DNA from: a virus
DNA length: 24,958 nt
IMG/VR virus record: IMGVR_UViG_3300030430_002548
Coordinates: 3,029-27,986 of that record
Strand: one strand, 5' to 3'
Shown: piece by piece, positions 8,527 through 23,204 of the stretch
How the letters are laid out: every line of letters starts with the position of its first letter
Position numbering within the stretch: the first letter of the stretch is position 1
Program-made: the position numbers and the translations under genes
The notes under the pieces: model-generated
Databases searched by the model: none
The model's input: only the letters and a program-made list of their open reading frames with translations
Told to the model about the DNA's origin: nothing

Positions 8527-8666
8527 TATTCCTCCAACATTTTTAATGTGCGTTCTACTGCACTTAATAAATCACTATCATTATCAAACTCACCATTTTC
8601 ACTTGCAAGTTGTTCTTGTAAGTACAAATAAACTTGCGTAAGTATTTGTATATTTAATTTACTCAT
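8526..8666 (-). CDS. Small helical protein (46 aa)
   Basis: The ATG is 3 nt after the TAG of the SGNH-like gene. The sequence is helical (MSKLNIQILTQVYLYLQEQL) with an acidic middle (ENGEFDNDSD) and a second helix ending LKMLEE. The terminal GAGGAATAA serves as ribosome site for the next gene. Function unknown. Confidence 0.6.
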   Translation of the reverse strand: MSKLNIQILTQVYLYLQEQLASENGEFDNDSDLLSAVERTLKMLEE

Positions 8667-8669
8667 GGG

Positions 8670-9494
8670 CTAAAACGGTTTGCCCATGAGTAGGTTGTTT
8701 TCGTTAATGTATCTAGATATGTGTTTTGCAATGCGTTTTGCACCTTTGTCATTAGGTTCAATCTCATTGTAATAACATTGACTTGACATAAACTCTCGTA
8801 AATCAAGCACATCATATGTTCCCCAATTACGTTTATCATGTTCTCGTGCAATGCGTGATAACCTATCGTTCCACATTGAGACGATTGCTTTCGCTGTGTA
8901 GTCAAAGCCATAGAACCTTTGTGGGTTATATGCGAGGTTGCCCTCGTACACAGATAACAGTAGGAAATCTCTGTTTTTCTGTTTCCATTGCTGTAACATG
9001 GTCTCGTATGCAATCGTCAATTTGTCAAGCTCACTGATTAACAAACCATGTAATAAGTTTGTGTCATCAATATCTTGAATCATTGGCATAAGAGATAACA
9101 AATCATTACCACCTGCACTTACAACAACTAGCTCTGTTGCCTCGTTGATTTGGTTGGCTTTGTCAATGCAATCGTAGATTGTATCACCGTCTCTACTTTG
9201 GTCATTGATTCTTGCCATGTATGTGCTGTTTGCATAGATTTCTGCGAAATACTCCACAGTGCCTTTGCCTGTCTTGGTATATGCTTTGCAATCAATTACG
9301 CTATCACCAATAAATGTTATTTCGGCTTTCTCGTTGACGTTCTTTTTGTTCAGCTTGGTCTGTATATAGTTTGTGTTATCTATAAAACCTGGATTGGTCC
9401 ATGCTGTGTTTGAACTGTCATCTTCATACCAATCGTTATTATCCATTGGGTAGTCATGAATCTTCTTGCTCATACTGTCCTTTCTATTTGACAT
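8670..9494 (-). CDS. SGNH/GDSL hydrolase-like protein
   Basis: This 274-residue protein shows block I (ITFIGDSVID, nucleophile S65), a block II glycine in SRDGDTIYD, and block III (SAGGND, G129 and N130 oxyanion residues). The last block is NEIEPNDKGAKRIA, where the usual D-x-x-H is replaced by an E-P-x-D form seen in some SGNH subfamilies. It would be a serine esterase or acyl hydrolase; the substrate is unknown. There is no signal peptide, so it acts in the cytoplasm or from the virion. It is the first gene of the leftward operon, which is odd for a family more often found in tails. The ATG at 9494 sits about 8 nt after a -10 box (leaderless); ATG 9473, with AAAGGA upstream, is the alternative. 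Confidence 0.7.
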   Translation of the reverse strand: MSNRKDSMSKKIHDYPMDNNDWYEDDSSNTAWTNPGFIDNTNYIQTKLNKKNVNEKAEITFIGDSVIDCKAYTKTGKGTVEYFAEIYANSTYMARINDQSRDGDTIYDCIDKANQINEATELVVVSAGGNDLLSLMPMIQDIDDTNLLHGLLISELDKLTIAYETMLQQWKQKNRDFLLLSVYEGNLAYNPQRFYGFDYTAKAIVSMWNDRLSRIAREHDKRNWGTYDVLDLREFMSSQCYYNEIEPNDKGAKRIAKHISRYINENNLLMGKPF

Positions 9495-9502
9495 CCTATA
9501 TT

Positions 9503-9530
9503 AACATACTTTCTAATTTAACTAGGTAAA
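9503..9530 (-). promoter_or_regulatory. Promoter of leftward early operon
   Basis: On the minus strand TTTACC (9530-9525) and TATGTT (9508-9503) are 16 bp apart. The -10 end lies 8 nt before the ATG at 9494, so the transcript would be leaderless or nearly so. It lies directly after the terminator of the structured RNA below. Confidence 0.45.
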
Positions 9531-9677
9531 TAAAAAAGAACCAGGTCGGTAGTAGTTTGGTATGCGTACGTATCACTACATGAAAGAAAGTTACTAACCT
9601 GGCTCTTTCTTATTTGTTACTGGCTTTCAGTTACAACAGAACAGGGCTGAAACGTTGCTCTTACTAACCAGTAACAA
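9531..9677 (-). ncRNA. Putative structured two-domain non-coding RNA
   Basis: Read on the minus strand, the first bases pair with bases about 55 nt later (UUGUUACUGG, 9677-9668, with CCAGUAACAA, 9623-9614: 10 perfect pairs). An inner helix lies inside (UUUCAG, 9652-9647, with CUGAAA, 9630-9625). A second domain pairs AAAGAGCCAGGU (9608-9597) with ACCUGGUUCUUU (9546-9535): 11 Watson-Crick pairs and one G-U. It runs into a U-rich tail, like a terminator. Inside are GUAGU/ACUAC pairing and a near-palindrome. Both domains carry GGUUAGUAA immediately after or at the end of their 5' stem. A -10 TATAAT places the start at the first stem. No known RNA family was recognised. Confidence 0.6.
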
Positions 9678-9681
9678 TTCC

Positions 9682-9711
9682 ATTATATACATAAATAGAT
9701 TTTAACAACAA
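9682..9711 (-). promoter_or_regulatory. Promoter of the structured RNA
   Basis: On the minus strand TATAAT (9687-9682) is preceded at 18 bp by TTGTTG (9711-9706), or at 15 bp by TTGTTA. The expected start is about 9675-9677, exactly at the first helix of the putative RNA. Confidence 0.5.
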
Positions 9712-16277: not shown

Positions 16278-19200
16278 ATGTCATTATGGTTAGACTGGAG
16301 CAAAAACTGGGAAAAAGGTTATAAAGAACAAGAAGAATTTGAAAAGCAATTAAAAAAAGCTGAATCAGATTCAGGCATAGATGCAACAAAACTTGCAAAA
16401 AGATTTGAAGAATTAGAAGCCTTAACTCCCACAGAAGAACCTGAAGTTATTGCAGCAGCAGCAGACTTAGGATTATCTGATAGAGAATATATAGACATAC
16501 ATAAACAAACAAAAAATAGAGATATTTTATATAACAACAATAGAAGTATAGGTGTTGATACAAAAGCAAAACAATCTTATCGCTACGCATCTAATTTACA
16601 ATTAAGACTTATAGGTAAACCATTCGAAAATCTTGGCACAGCTACAAGAGAAGGTGCAAAAAGAGCATTAGATAAATTTGGTTCTTATGTTTTTGGTTCT
16701 TTAAGAATATTTGCTGATTCTGTTATACAAAGTGTTGATAGGGGTGCAAGAAATTATAGTGTAGAGTATCAAGCAGCACTTGAAGAAGAATTAAATAAAC
16801 AAGGTAAAACATTATCTGATGCTGTAGAGATAGCAGGTTATGAAGGATTAAAAGATAACAAGCTACCTTTCATCCCTGGTATCAAAGCACATTTAAGAGC
16901 AATAGTTAATTATGAAAAACAAAGAAATCAAAAATTAAGAAATGGTTCTAAATATTACACACCATCACAAACTGCAACAAATTTCTTAAAAGCTCGTGGT
17001 TTGGTGGATGAAGAAGGAAATCCAATAGTAACTAAAACAGATTTAAATATATTTACAGAAACATTTCCTGACATTGTTAGTGAAAAAATAACAGCTCTTA
17101 GAAATGAAAAAGGAAGAGATTTAGATTTTTCTGAAAAGGTAGGTTTATATTTACAAACTGTAGATGAATTAATTGACCCAGAAACTGACCAAAAAGGTTT
17201 AAGAGATATTATTGCTTTACATCCTGAATTTGATAAACAACAACAATTAAACGAAAAGTTTTTTGGACAGGCTATACCTGTTGGTTTAGGTGATGCTATT
17301 GTTTTTGGTCTTACAGGTAATCTATCTACTAATTATGGTTATGGAAATATTTTTACAGAATCAATAGACACTGCATTTGATAAATTAGAGCAACAAGCAC
17401 AGGATGCTTTAGAAAGCAAACAAATATCAGGAGCTCAATATATGGATATTCTTGAAACAGCAGAACAAGAAAGAAAAGATGCTTTACAAGATTTAGGTTA
17501 TGAAAAACAAAAAAGTGTTGCAGGATTTATGGCAGGTTTAATTAATGCTGCAAAATATATATTTTTAGACCCACTTAATTATTTAGTTCCTGGTGGTGGT
17601 GTCATTCGTAGAGCACCAAAAGATTTTGATGAAGTTCTTACATCTACAGCAGGTAAATTAATTGATGAAATAGATGCAGGAAAAACTATGAGAGATGTAT
17701 ATGATGAAAACATAGAGGTTTTTCAAGGCATTTCTAATTTATTAGTTGATGCAAAAAAAGCAGATGTTCCCATTGCACTTAAATTAATTAATGAAGGTTT
17801 TCATCCTGATTTCGCATTTAGAATAAAAAATGCTGCCACTACTGAAGCAGATATAATAAAAACATTAGAGGATGGTATTGAGAGTGGTTTTCTTGTCGAT
17901 ATGTTTTATGGTGGTAATTTTATTGGAAAAGGTAAAAACAAACATTTACAATCAAAAACTTTATATGAAAATAATTTAGAAGCGTTAGTTCAAACAGAAT
18001 TAGATGAGGGTATAACTGCTGCATATAGAAGAGGTGGAGGTTTTAGAGATACTTTCTTAGCACGAGATGTTAAATTACCTAAGTTAGGTGAAGCAGATTT
18101 AAGTGATACAAAAGCAGCAACAGAATACTTTGTAAGGTATGGTTACGCATCTAAAGTACCAGAAAGCAGATTAGAAGTTCTTACAAAAGAATTTTATGAA
18201 GCATTAACAGAAGGTGAATACTTTCAAGCAAAAGAAATATTTGAAAATAAATTAGTTTTTGGAGAAATGGGATTGCAACTAAAAAATACTTATGGTCTAA
18301 CAAATAATGAAATAGATGAATTTTTTACACAATTTTACATGAGAAACTCAAAAAATGGATTCAATGATGATTTTGCAAAACCTATGTCTCCTACTAGAAA
18401 TCCTGACCATTATGACCCTATGGAAACAGATATAATCACAGAAAAAATATTTGGTAGTACAGGTCTGCCAGAGCAAGATATTGTTAACTTTACATCACAA
18501 TCTATAGAACTTTTAGGACAACTTAAAAATTTAACAATACATGGTCCAGATATACAAGGATTGTTAAGAGCAACATCTGCAAAAAGAAGATTAAGAGCAC
18601 AAACACTTAATAAAGATGGAGAGCAAGAATTATTCGATATCGTTAGAAAAGCAGCAGATGAAGGTGTGCAGATAGATTTTTGGAAAGAAGGTAGTGCATT
18701 AAGAGATGCAATAGATGATGTATATACAGATTTTGAAGATGCAAATATATTATTTAAAGGATTTGAAAAAGGGACACAAACCTATGACAATTTAGTTTTT
18801 GGATATATGAGAAATTATCGTTATCCTTCTTTCTTATTAGGAAGATTATCTTATCCATTAAAACTTATTACAGATGCAACAATTAAATTTAAATTATTTA
18901 ATGTAAGAAGTTTTCTTGATAATCCTTTTGAATATCTTAAATTAATGTTAAGTGATTCAGAAGGATTATTAGCTAGAATTTTTAATTATAAACCACCAAC
19001 AACTCTTGTTGGACCATATAGAACAACAGTGCCTGTAGAAAAATTAGGACCTATACCTTTAAATAAAATCTTACCTGAAAGTCTTAGAAAATCATTAGGT
19101 GTTTTATCTGATTCACAACAATTTGGTGTGCCTGAATTAGGTCAATTATTCTCTGCAGATGTAAAATTTATTAACAATAGACATGTAACAAATACAGGTC

Positions 19201-22200
19201 ACGAGTTAGTAAATAAAACTGCACAAGGTAAAACATGGAATGATGCTTATGAATATTTTTTATTTAAATATGTTGATGATGATTTAGCACCTGTAATTGC
19301 AGGTATGAAAAGAAAAGGTTTTACTGTTGAGCAAATAGCAGAAGAAATACAAACAAATCCTGCACTTGCCAAAATAATTGATACATCAAACAAAATGATA
19401 AAACTTAGAGGACCTAGAAAAAGAAATCAAGGTATAGGTATTGTGAAATCTAGTGAAGACTTCCAAAGGTTAGCTAGGCATTATTCACAATCATTAGATA
19501 ATTATACAGGTGGCAAAGCAGAATTACTTAATATTATTGCTGATGCTAAACTTGGTCCTTTTAATTTAAGAGACTTAAATTCTACAACACCTGATGTAGC
19601 AAGAAAAGTTACTCAAAGATTACAAAGGCTTTCAGAAAAATTTAGAAATGATTTACCTACATCAATACCATATCCTAAAAATAGATTAAGAACTATTGAC
19701 CCTGATGCAACAGTAAAACAAAAGATTTTTGAATCCTATAGAAATGTAATACAATCTATATTTTTTGCAACGACACAAGGAGAAGGTAGTGCTATTCGTA
19801 TTCCATTTATAAAACAGGCATACGAAAATTTTGTAAAAGCATTTACTGTATTTGGAACAAAAGATGGTTTATCAGAAATGTTAAGATTACACAATGACCC
19901 AGATAGTGTTATTAATTTATCTGATGATATTGTAGAAGAGGTAACTAATCAAATATCAAAAGCAAACATTACTTTAGAAGATAGTGCAGAAGTATTATCA
20001 AAAAATATCAAACCACAAGTAACACAAAGAACAGATAAAGGTGTTACCACATTTAACGCAACTGTATTTACAGAACAAGGTGGAAATAGAAGTGTAAATT
20101 ATCTTTCTAAAAATACATTAAATCAAGATAGTTTAAAACTAACAACAGATTTGCAAAGAGCTGAAGAACTTGTTTACAAAACTGCAGATAAAATAGCAGA
20201 GGGTAGATTAGGTTTTGATGATTCTAAAATAGGTACATACACTGCACAATTTAGAAAAGATGAAGTTATTTACAATGGTCAGTTACCAGATAAAAAACAA
20301 TTAAGCTCTGTTTTAAAAAATAATTTTGATTCTGGATATAACGATTCAGATATAGATATATTAATAAATGAAGCACTAGATTATTTATCTAAACCTGGTG
20401 CAACTAAAAAAGGTTTAGAAGATATATTAGGCTTGTCAAATAAACAACCAAATTTAACAAAGATAAAAAGTAAATTCCAGGCATCAACTAAAGGAAGGTC
20501 AACGCCAAATAAATATTCTGGCGAGTTAACTTTTGATGTTGGAAGACAAACTATTGAAAGAGTTTTAGGTAAAAAAATAACTGTTGCAGTAAAAAAACAA
20601 AATATAACTGATGAATTAATTGATGATATATATAAATTTACACAAGAAAATAATGAAGGTTTTAGTTTAGATTTAGGTAATCCTGATAGTTGGGGTAAAG
20701 AAGCTATGTTGTTTGTATCGCCATATAAAACAAGAACACTAACAATTACAGGAAAAGATAAACTTACAAGAGATGCAGTCGCTATGTTTGTAAAAGACAA
20801 TCAAGATAAATTACGACTTGTAGACCATGTGCTTGGAGGTAAATGGGATGCAACAAGAGGTCAATGGACATTAGATGTTTCTGTAAAAATAAACAGAGGC
20901 GTAAAAGATACCAGAGATATTGCAGGTGTAGCCGCTTACAACAAAGCAAAATATTTAGGTTTAGCAGCAGACCAAATAAGTTTTGGAGAAACATATCTTG
21001 TAAAAGAAGGTGATGAAATTATTGAAACAGTGTTTAAACAAGATGATACTTATGAACTTATAAACAACTCAGCAGTTTATAACTTATTACGAACAAAAGG
21101 CAAAAAATTACTCAATGATAAACAAGTAAAGGCTTTAGGTGATGAAAGTATTGTTCGTGGAAAAAATTATCTTGCTAATAGACAAGGTAAAAACATAGAA
21201 GAAAGAGCTTTTAAGCCAGATGCAATATTTGAAAAATCATTTATAAAAGGAATATTTGATAGAAAAAATAAATCATTAGAAATATTTACACCAAGAAAAA
21301 ATACAATAATGCAAAACTTTGATGAATACAGTTATACAACACATCTTGATTTAAATGATGTAAAGCTAAATGTAAAAAGAAATATGAGTTTTGAAGATAT
21401 ACATAACAGAGCAATGGAAGCAGCTATGGAGGCACAGACTAATCTTTTATACAACTTAACTGAAAGAGGATATTTTGCACAAGCATACAGAAGTTCTTTT
21501 GCTTTCTTTGAAGCATACAGAGAATATGTAGGAAGATATTTTTTACTTACAGCTAACAATCCAAAAGGTGCAGTGCAAATTGGTCAAGGTGCAAGAAGAG
21601 GTATAGAAAATAATATTATTGTTGAAGACAGATTTGGTGATTTGTATGTATTTCTACCAACATCAGGAACTCCTTTAGAACCATACACAAAATCAGATGC
21701 TAATGGTCAAGCCAATGAGGATGTTTCTGTAGATGAGAATAGAGTATATATTAAAAGAGGAGTTCCTCTCAAATCTATTGGTGTAGGCGGTGTTGGTTAT
21801 TTACCATCATTAGGAGATGGAATAACAATACCACTTGGATTTTTAGTTAGAAATAATCCTGGAGCAAGAAAATTCATAGAAAAAAATATCATGGCAGGAT
21901 TTGCTTTACCATTCAGTGAAGAACCTTTGTCACTTAATGAAATACCTGCAGAACTTTTTGACATGGCTATTCCTTCTGTTGCAAAAAATTGGTTTAATGC
22001 TATGGCTAGTTCTTTCGGTTTAGAAGGTGTAGATGAAGATATATGGGTTTCTGCAAACACAACTGCTTTGCAAATAGCAGCACAATTACATCCAGAGTTA
22101 GCAAATGATGTAGATTCTTTACAAAAAGTTGCAGAACAAGTTAGAGACAATATTTATCATCTAAGAGCATGGGATAGATTTATAAGTCCTTTTGCACCAA

Positions 22201-23204
22201 AGTTAAATGTTATGTACAAAATAGAGGGTAATGAACAAAACTTTAATGAATGGTATGACAAAGAAGGTTATGAAGCAGGTCTTGCATACAATAATTTTGT
22301 TGAATTAGCTGCAATACAAGGATTTTATCAAGACAAAAGAAAAGAGTGGGTGTCTATATTAGGTCCAAAACAAGGAGAATATTACGCATTATTAGAAGTT
22401 GTAAGACTTTTGGGTCTTGATAGATACGATATAAACAAACAACTTACTTCTGCAGGATTACAACTTAGAGGTAAGAGTGTTTCAGAGGCAGGAAGATTAC
22501 CAAGAACAACAAAAGAATATGATTTTGTAAATAACAATCAAGAGCTGAATGAAGATTATGGACCAGTGTTAGTTTATTTTTCTAGAAATTTAGATGAAGG
22601 TAAATTAGATTTTTCAGGATTTACAGCAGTAAAATATCTTGGATTAATTACACCAAAAAATGGTGATGAGTTGTACTTAGAAGTACAAAGATATATTGCA
22701 TCTTTAGTTCAACAAGCAGCAAAAGATGTAAATTTACAAAGTCTTGAAGCAACAGGAAAAGCAACACCAGAAAATATAAAAGCCAAAAATGCACAGATAG
22801 ATGGTCAAGTAGCAACATGGTTTCCAATGGCTTTTGGAAAATCAGAGCAATACAACAAAGTTCTTGGTGGAGAAACTACTGAGAGATTAAGAAATGATAT
22901 ACTAGTAGATTATTTAGTAAGAGCATCTAATGACCCAAGATTTCAAGAGTTTGAAATAACACCATTTTTAAAAGAGTATATTGACTATAGACAAATTGCT
23001 ATTGATTCAATACAAAAAGAATTAAATTACCCTAATGAAATATCAGCAATAAATTGGTTGGTTACAAGTGATACTGATAGAGCACAAGATGTAAGGATGA
23101 AGCTATATGATAAAGCGTACACCATTGTAGAAAAATATCCATTGTTTATGGTAGTATTTGATGAAGTGCTTAGTTACGAGTTAAATAGATTTGGAGTTGA
23201 TTAA
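16278..23204 (+). CDS. Giant virion-type protein, cysteine-free (2308 aa)
   Basis: One uninterrupted frame of 6.9 kb lies between portal-linked genes and a lysozyme gene. The whole chain contains no cysteine. The N-terminal 100 residues are charged helices; several Gly/Ala-rich hydrophobic segments occur (for example KSVAGFMAGLINAAKYIFLDPLNYLVPGGG near 415-445). Residues about 1440-1570 (KEAMLFVSPYKTRTLTI, then DAVAMFVKDNQDKLRLVDHV, then LDVSVKINRG) resemble a module I recall from large phage polyvalent proteins. The C-terminal region (1800-2300) has PxGxxxPL-type and SPFAP motifs. I see no polymerase or protease active site. By position and size it is probably an internal/ejection protein delivered with DNA, like a giant analogue of T7 gp16. 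Its identity is inferred. Confidence 0.75.
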   Translation: MSLWLDWSKNWEKGYKEQEEFEKQLKKAESDSGIDATKLAKRFEELEALTPTEEPEVIAAAADLGLSDREYIDIHKQTKNRDILYNNNRSIGVDTKAKQSYRYASNLQLRLIGKPFENLGTATREGAKRALDKFGSYVFGSLRIFADSVIQSVDRGARNYSVEYQAALEEELNKQGKTLSDAVEIAGYEGLKDNKLPFIPGIKAHLRAIVNYEKQRNQKLRNGSKYYTPSQTATNFLKARGLVDEEGNPIVTKTDLNIFTETFPDIVSEKITALRNEKGRDLDFSEKVGLYLQTVDELIDPETDQKGLRDIIALHPEFDKQQQLNEKFFGQAIPVGLGDAIVFGLTGNLSTNYGYGNIFTESIDTAFDKLEQQAQDALESKQISGAQYMDILETAEQERKDALQDLGYEKQKSVAGFMAGLINAAKYIFLDPLNYLVPGGGVIRRAPKDFDEVLTSTAGKLIDEIDAGKTMRDVYDENIEVFQGISNLLVDAKKADVPIALKLINEGFHPDFAFRIKNAATTEADIIKTLEDGIESGFLVDMFYGGNFIGKGKNKHLQSKTLYENNLEALVQTELDEGITAAYRRGGGFRDTFLARDVKLPKLGEADLSDTKAATEYFVRYGYASKVPESRLEVLTKEFYEALTEGEYFQAKEIFENKLVFGEMGLQLKNTYGLTNNEIDEFFTQFYMRNSKNGFNDDFAKPMSPTRNPDHYDPMETDIITEKIFGSTGLPEQDIVNFTSQSIELLGQLKNLTIHGPDIQGLLRATSAKRRLRAQTLNKDGEQELFDIVRKAADEGVQIDFWKEGSALRDAIDDVYTDFEDANILFKGFEKGTQTYDNLVFGYMRNYRYPSFLLGRLSYPLKLITDATIKFKLFNVRSFLDNPFEYLKLMLSDSEGLLARIFNYKPPTTLVGPYRTTVPVEKLGPIPLNKILPESLRKSLGVLSDSQQFGVPELGQLFSADVKFINNRHVTNTGHELVNKTAQGKTWNDAYEYFLFKYVDDDLAPVIAGMKRKGFTVEQIAEEIQTNPALAKIIDTSNKMIKLRGPRKRNQGIGIVKSSEDFQRLARHYSQSLDNYTGGKAELLNIIADAKLGPFNLRDLNSTTPDVARKVTQRLQRLSEKFRNDLPTSIPYPKNRLRTIDPDATVKQKIFESYRNVIQSIFFATTQGEGSAIRIPFIKQAYENFVKAFTVFGTKDGLSEMLRLHNDPDSVINLSDDIVEEVTNQISKANITLEDSAEVLSKNIKPQVTQRTDKGVTTFNATVFTEQGGNRSVNYLSKNTLNQDSLKLTTDLQRAEELVYKTADKIAEGRLGFDDSKIGTYTAQFRKDEVIYNGQLPDKKQLSSVLKNNFDSGYNDSDIDILINEALDYLSKPGATKKGLEDILGLSNKQPNLTKIKSKFQASTKGRSTPNKYSGELTFDVGRQTIERVLGKKITVAVKKQNITDELIDDIYKFTQENNEGFSLDLGNPDSWGKEAMLFVSPYKTRTLTITGKDKLTRDAVAMFVKDNQDKLRLVDHVLGGKWDATRGQWTLDVSVKINRGVKDTRDIAGVAAYNKAKYLGLAADQISFGETYLVKEGDEIIETVFKQDDTYELINNSAVYNLLRTKGKKLLNDKQVKALGDESIVRGKNYLANRQGKNIEERAFKPDAIFEKSFIKGIFDRKNKSLEIFTPRKNTIMQNFDEYSYTTHLDLNDVKLNVKRNMSFEDIHNRAMEAAMEAQTNLLYNLTERGYFAQAYRSSFAFFEAYREYVGRYFLLTANNPKGAVQIGQGARRGIENNIIVEDRFGDLYVFLPTSGTPLEPYTKSDANGQANEDVSVDENRVYIKRGVPLKSIGVGGVGYLPSLGDGITIPLGFLVRNNPGARKFIEKNIMAGFALPFSEEPLSLNEIPAELFDMAIPSVAKNWFNAMASSFGLEGVDEDIWVSANTTALQIAAQLHPELANDVDSLQKVAEQVRDNIYHLRAWDRFISPFAPKLNVMYKIEGNEQNFNEWYDKEGYEAGLAYNNFVELAAIQGFYQDKRKEWVSILGPKQGEYYALLEVVRLLGLDRYDINKQLTSAGLQLRGKSVSEAGRLPRTTKEYDFVNNNQELNEDYGPVLVYFSRNLDEGKLDFSGFTAVKYLGLITPKNGDELYLEVQRYIASLVQQAAKDVNLQSLEATGKATPENIKAKNAQIDGQVATWFPMAFGKSEQYNKVLGGETTERLRNDILVDYLVRASNDPRFQEFEITPFLKEYIDYRQIAIDSIQKELNYPNEISAINWLVTSDTDRAQDVRMKLYDKAYTIVEKYPLFMVVFDEVLSYELNRFGVD

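Follow-up and report, generated by a model that had tools for sequence, protein, structure and literature searches.

The 24,958-nucleotide stretch of viral DNA analyzed here (the window, part of an IMG/VR virus record of 31,168 bp) carries on its minus strand a single member of a previously uncatalogued family of structured RNAs that is strongly conserved in many uncultivated aquatic phages. The core of this RNA is a hairpin at positions 9612 to 9679, located between a group of small plus-strand genes and a minus-strand gene, and it scores 73.2 bits (E 1e-15) against the covariance model of the family. That the RNA exists, and that it is read from this strand, are as good as certain. The core is present in a single copy per phage, on the strand of the early genes, and because it is also widespread and has been conserved through deep sequence change, it must serve some need of these phages early in infection. 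It is common in uncultivated aquatic phages, yet absent from RNA libraries. Its role is probably that of a switch built into a transcript or of a free-standing regulatory RNA. The original prediction for this locus envisaged a trans-acting or protein-titrating RNA; the wider family points to a cis-acting element at least as much.

The core hairpin and its relatives

On the minus strand, positions 9690 to 9521 fold with an energy of -49.6 kcal/mol (z = -4.4), a value that none of 200 shuffled sequences equaled, whereas the same stretch of the plus strand reaches a z of only -2.4. Two hairpins make up the fold, one at 9679-9612 and another (H2) at 9605-9538, the latter being followed by a U-tract. 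The structure, its strand and its two-hairpin geometry are thus as originally predicted, including a G-U pair in the stem of H2 that would read A-C on the plus strand. The first hairpin is the core. Its outer stem P1 has 10 bp, formed by the 5' arm TTGTTACTGG (9668-9677) and the 3' arm CCAGTAACAA (9614-9623), and all 10 pairs covary among relatives. Within P1 lie two conserved internal-loop strands, AGTAAGA (9659-9665) and ACTGAAAG (9624-9631), and then an inner stem P2 of 5-6 bp, in which GCAAC (9654-9658) pairs with GTTGT (9633-9637), again with covariation. The conserved apical loop GCCCTGTT (9640-9647) is invariant in 80 distinct relatives, partly as a consequence of the search pattern used to find them. 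The A9661-U9629 pair of the window is G-C in many relatives.

The general architecture of the core is P1, an internal loop with AGUA opposite GAA(A), a 2-bp step, P2 and the GCCCUGUU apical loop. This can be abbreviated as AGUA-R-GA / GCCCUGUU / ACYGAAAG, or written in full as P1 - N(U/C)N - AGUARGA - P2 - GCCCUGUU loop - P2' - NACYGAAAG - P1'. In their sequence, the opposing AGUA (in AGTAAGA) and GAA (in ACTGAAAG) conform to the definition of the loop E motif given for T-box RNAs (PMC4695836). Among 80 distinct sequences the AGUA is invariant except for one AUUA and the GAA is invariant, both being in part constraints of the search.

BLAST comparisons with related loci had indicated that the first hairpin is kept while the sequences of its stems change. 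A search of IMG/VR with a DNA pattern of fixed letters retrieved 28 stretches at first and 103 later, about a dozen of which would be expected by chance according to our own estimate. Some pattern matches lacked P1 and were set aside as chance occurrences (among them L135, L150, L152, L157, L181, L190, L191, L193 and L224); the covariance model found neither L150 nor L152. This model, built on 20 sequences, gave 94 matches among 100 loci, one per locus. For an earlier set of loci it had given 39 matches, again one per locus, with a gap between 57.7 bits and the next score of 20.3 bits. Pattern and covariance searches of IMG/VR together yielded 80 distinct relatives, with one core on each contig.

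In the alignment of these 80 sequences, 95% of the cells are paired, and 15 of the 16 pairs have changed on both sides. Compensatory changes, whose absence from related phages had been named beforehand as a refutation of the prediction, occur in 269 cells as compared to 55 after shuffling and no more than 55 with slid partners; the fixed letters of the alignment were partly imposed by the search pattern, and the stems are free of that constraint. On the strand that runs in the direction of the genes, there are 1107 Watson-Crick, 104 G-U and 10 A-C pairs, and the predominance of G-U over A-C implies that it is the transcript of this strand that is under selection. The core is intergenic and covaries as pairs, which speaks against a protein-coding reading, in agreement with the original prediction, as is the lack of a matching RNA family. 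At gathering scores, neither the window nor any of 13 related loci matched a family of Rfam 15, and the best matches below these scores (E 0.4-8) resemble chance. ARAGORN detected no tRNA or tmRNA, and an identity as 6S RNA, tRNA or tmRNA is unsupported by Rfam or ARAGORN matching.

Transcription signals, neighboring genes and host

A putative -10 box, TATAAT (9682-9687, minus strand), precedes the P1 stem of the window by 4 nt, and a transcription start near 9675 is plausible. The promoter predicted for this RNA is perfect in its -10 sequence, but the -35 candidates upstream of it (TTGTTG and TTGTTA) are weak, no pairing of -35 and -10 at this box passes a standard promoter scan, and a TATAAT-type box just before P1 is seen only in the close relatives of the window (L084, L083, where it reads TATAATA, L085 and L005). 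At the other end, H2 (9538-9605) and the U-rich tail TTTTTTAT (9531-9537) look like an intrinsic terminator, as had been proposed. H2 has the arms GAGCCAGG and CCTGGTTC in the window, L084 and L083, and GAGCTAGG and CCTAGTTC in L085 and L005, a difference of one compensatory change, and in all of them a U-tract follows. This predicted terminator was found by a custom scan; a scan with loops of up to 8 nt misses it by design. The two hairpins of the window do have the 9-mer GGTTAGTAA in common at their 5' stems, which had suggested the duplication of a domain. In the first hairpin, however, the AGTAA part of the 9-mer belongs to the conserved core, and H2 is without the rest of that core, so that we rejected H2 as a duplicated core.

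Between H2 and the next gene there is an extended -10-like sequence, TGTTAATAT (9498-9506, minus strand), also present in the leaders of L008, L009 and L005, which is probably a separate promoter of the downstream gene. Together, H2 and TGTTAATAT suggest that the window has a discrete, predicted unit of transcription here. The downstream gene (8670-9473, minus strand) encodes a GDSL/SGNH-like hydrolase (Pfam PF13472, 38.7 bits against a cut-off of 32.9). It likely starts at the ATG at 9473, with AGAAAGGA upstream, rather than at 9494 as in the listed ORF, and its relatives of 255-283 aa have the same location. This hydrolase gene belongs to a phage early operon and adjoins the RNA in two clades. 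At the 3' end of the gene (8660-8692) there is an inverted repeat of 14 nt with 93% complementarity and a 5-nt loop, probably a terminator or a regulatory hairpin.

In a second clade the core itself is placed at a terminator-like site. P1 is followed directly by U5-U9 in L032, L185, L204, L218, L223, L229, L182, L128 and L145, so that the core forms the loop of a terminator-like stem; the P1 sequences of these loci vary and the U-tract is constant. In the first seven of these loci, an extended -10-like TGNTACAAT comes next, with a GDSL gene ~68 nt further on.

The core is intergenic in 75 distinct loci, in about 70 of which the next downstream ORF has the same direction and lies 15-600 nt away, and in most phages other than that of the window it is situated between early genes. 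The genes downstream differ. The GDSL-like hydrolase is found in the window clade and in the clade with P1 as terminator stem, and other loci have small unknown genes followed by genes for an AAA ATPase and a VWA-like protein (named by sequence motifs).

Among cellular records, the core was found in one 1.1-Mb Actinomycetota MAG (G001), on two contigs. The first contains a repeated unit of 43,859 bp, with identical cores at 2868 and 46727; its first 2 kb and the repeat, when compared directly, are not identical. In the complete phage within G001, the core lies in a plus-strand early region, and the minus strand carries a block of large genes that includes one the size of a terminase gene. The polarity of the window is the same, with its core on the minus and its terminase on the plus strand. 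The second contig has a core at G001:C36:13697-13765 (L334; 62.6 bits). None of 98 genomes related to this MAG contains the core, and an Actinomycetota host, suggested by the binning of phage contigs into one MAG, is only a guess. No isolated phage is a close relative by DNA, and the identity of the terminase to that of Streptomyces phages is only ~25%. A 2308-aa ORF of the window (16278-23204, plus strand) has no PHROG match; its relatives of 2000-2160 aa are located beside the terminase.

Exchangeable hairpins and shared strands around the core

Many loci contain long hairpins with a near-constant stem, UAGGUAGCUUGUAGCACAUA / UGUGUGUUACAAGCUAUCUA, of ~20 bp with conserved G-U pairs, and with loops of ~30-115 nt. 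Clustering of the loops, 66 of which are distinct, gave 41 groups, and the same loop can turn up in different phages and places (that of L007 equals that of L172; those of L084, L160 and L238 are nearly alike). Such recurrence makes the long hairpins look like exchangeable cassettes. Between the core and H2, their number is zero in the window, one each in L084, L083 and L085, and two in L005. Scanning of viral contigs for long hairpins gave at least 120 stretches, and a clear core was found in 23 of 84 newly retrieved loci, from which we conclude that the long hairpins are widespread. They occur in early intergenic regions, often without a core nearby (for example L140:4868-5127, L005:3281-3540 and L172:11527-11764). 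Matches of the loops outside the hairpin context are few and short, and the notion that the loops are spacers copied from elsewhere was rejected. Weak matches to the core model were seen at the edges of long hairpins or exactly between them (L279:11961-12141, L311:7819-7999, L266:1778-1915 and L281:322-458), which suggests that there may be types of junction module other than the core. The loop family CUUUCUGCAGAAAG / ACUUAUUGCAAUAAGU / ACGUAUUGCAAUACGU of L178, L214 and L228 shows compensatory changes, an indication that at least some accessory loops are themselves structured RNAs.

In most loci the core is connected to such hairpins through its outer stem. With a criterion of at least 15 complementary nucleotides out of 16, 52 of 75 loci have a P1 whose 3' strand doubles as the 5' arm of the hairpin that comes next downstream. 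In 27 of 75 the 5' strand of P1 doubles as the 3' arm of a hairpin upstream, and at least one of the two applies to 57 of 75, as compared to none with shuffled flanks. The common strand makes P1 and the outer half of the neighboring hairpin mutually exclusive. When the two states were imposed on the folds, they differed by a mean of 2.3 kcal/mol and were within 3 kcal/mol of each other in 36 of the 52 loci; the state with the neighboring hairpin was favored by energy in 45 of the 52. Strand sharing with a long neighbor was not found in the window itself, and a partial sharing between P1 and H2 was discounted, as it is lost in L085 and L005.

More generally, strands a (GCUAUCUA) and a' (UAGRUAGC) have a density around the core that is 19 times that of other regions. 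They alternate in 200 of 212 steps between neighbors (shuffled mean 127, maximum 147), a count in which the P1 of the core gives most arrays one alternating step by definition, and 44 of 58 arrays begin and end with a. As an RNA architecture, such arrays of alternating strands and exchangeable hairpins are unusual. Terminator-like sites are present in 34 of the 75 loci and a nearby Shine-Dalgarno sequence in 9 of the 75; in 9 loci the stem that has a strand in common with P1 ends right before a Shine-Dalgarno sequence and an ORF. In L132 and L126 this stem ends in the strand of a terminator, since the final a strand is able to pair with a strand after it that runs into a U-rich stretch.

Possible modes of action and known systems

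The reading that we favor, with a probability somewhat short of even, is that the core acts in cis in early transcripts, as part of a two-state switch or a punctuation element that in the window is reduced to promoter, core and terminator. It is favored by the sharing of strands, by the connection with terminators and ribosome-binding sites, and by the position in early operons. The core would act within the leader or between the genes of an early transcript, where its folding, or its binding by a protein, host factor or ligand, might favor P1. With P1 fixed, the outer half of the neighboring hairpin would open in most phages, and the opened half would adjoin a ribosome-binding site in some of them and the strand of a U-tract in others; in one clade P1 itself, directly before U5-U9, would be the terminator stem. 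In the phage of the window, with its -10 box, core, terminator hairpin and then a separate promoter for the GDSL hydrolase, the unit might set whether transcription stops at 9531, or might just yield a short RNA of ~145 nt. A switch of this kind would show RNA timing of early genes in phages without cultured hosts. Several observations count against it. The downstream genes differ between phages, as would rarely be the case with a riboswitch specific for one ligand, the loci do not all have any one expression platform in common, and strand sharing was not found in the window. The promoter that appears to follow the terminator in the window clade seems to fit an independent RNA at least as well. 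An extension of the cis-acting switch, which we put forward tentatively and consider less likely than not, is a modular array in which a and a' strands alternate along the early leader and enclose exchangeable modules and one invariant core. Each strand could pair to its left or its right, and branch migration would carry the state of the core onward until it reached a terminator or a ribosome-binding site. If true, such an RNA switch would work as a relay whose modules can be swapped, unlike the known single-step attenuators.

A stand-alone trans-acting RNA, which is possible and less probable than the cis-acting switch, would bind a host or phage protein (RNA polymerase, the ribosome, a nuclease or a defence protein are candidates) or another RNA through its loop E-like core and its GCCCUGUU loop, and the neighboring hairpins might then be additional small RNA modules, released by processing of one common transcript. 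Arguments for it are the presence of exactly one core per phage, the constancy of the core while the adjoining genes change to unrelated ones, the units of the window clade and of the clade with P1 as terminator stem, which end in a terminator with a new, separate promoter after it, and the recurrence of accessory loop families in unrelated positions. If it is correct, the rigid loops should reveal the host target. However, many cores lie 16-300 nt after a gene on the same strand and have no evident promoter of their own, and an RNA that acts purely in trans would have no use for either the strand sharing or the proximity to Shine-Dalgarno sequences. The complement of the loop, AACAGGGC, is absent from the E. 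coli rRNA operon tested (a stretch of rrnB), and pairing of GCCCUGUU with rRNA as an antisense was rejected. Three other explanations are less likely than either of these. RNase III substrates have stems of about 20 bp, and the intercistronic, sense-oriented stems of ~20 bp with conserved G-U pairs would suit a role as punctuation for the processing or stability of early polycistronic mRNA, with RNase III cutting the stems and the core protecting or marking the ends; we consider this improbable, since it leaves the invariant loops of the core and the strict alternation of strands unexplained. Even less credit can be given to an element that functions as DNA (a replication origin or a recombination or packaging site, with the hairpins as cruciforms or in single-stranded DNA). 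The gain, loss and exchange of accessory hairpins between phages and the single site per genome would accord with such an element, but its orientation is fixed with that of the genes, it is coupled to terminators, and compensation on one strand is by G-U and not A-C, albeit single-stranded DNA could use G-T. Equally slight are the chances of a new class of self-cleaving ribozyme. What can be said for it is that the conserved core is small, that it has an internal loop of two strands and an apical loop that does not vary, and that it is unmatched in Rfam. Nothing more positive was observed, no known ribozyme consensus was seen, and P1 serves as a terminator stem in one clade.

With respect to known systems, GOLLD and ROOL are large phage-associated structured noncoding RNAs (PMC2864571, PMC12286853), found like the core in phages and metagenomes. 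The core differs from them in its size of ~68 nt and in matching no Rfam family. T-box RNAs employ terminator and antiterminator alternatives (PMC4695836), and T-box riboswitches (RF00230) share with the core an internal loop with AGUA and GAA and, in some core loci, mutually exclusive stems that end in a terminator. The core differs in having no Rfam T-box match, specifier codon, AG bulge or T-box UGGN sequence, and the phage genes near it are not related to amino acids. Close to a terminator or ribosome-binding site, the conserved stem of the core and the stem next to it make use of one strand, which resembles attenuators and riboswitches in general; differences are the lack of an Rfam riboswitch match, the variable genes downstream and the organization of the core regions as arrays, in which 3-11 complementary strands alternate and the modules can be exchanged. 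The put sequences of phage HK022 and other RNAs of processive antitermination are likewise phage hairpins near an early transcription start with terminator-like hairpins after them. No relation in sequence or in Rfam was seen between these and the core, which is present in single copy and is itself the terminator in one clade. Finally, the PeSL cassettes of the T4-type phages are mobile stem-loops that carry a promoter together with a terminator-like stem. The core regions have in common with them the presence of exchangeable stem-loops between phage genes, and are distinguished from them by stems of ~20 bp, structured variable loops and a conserved core hairpin.
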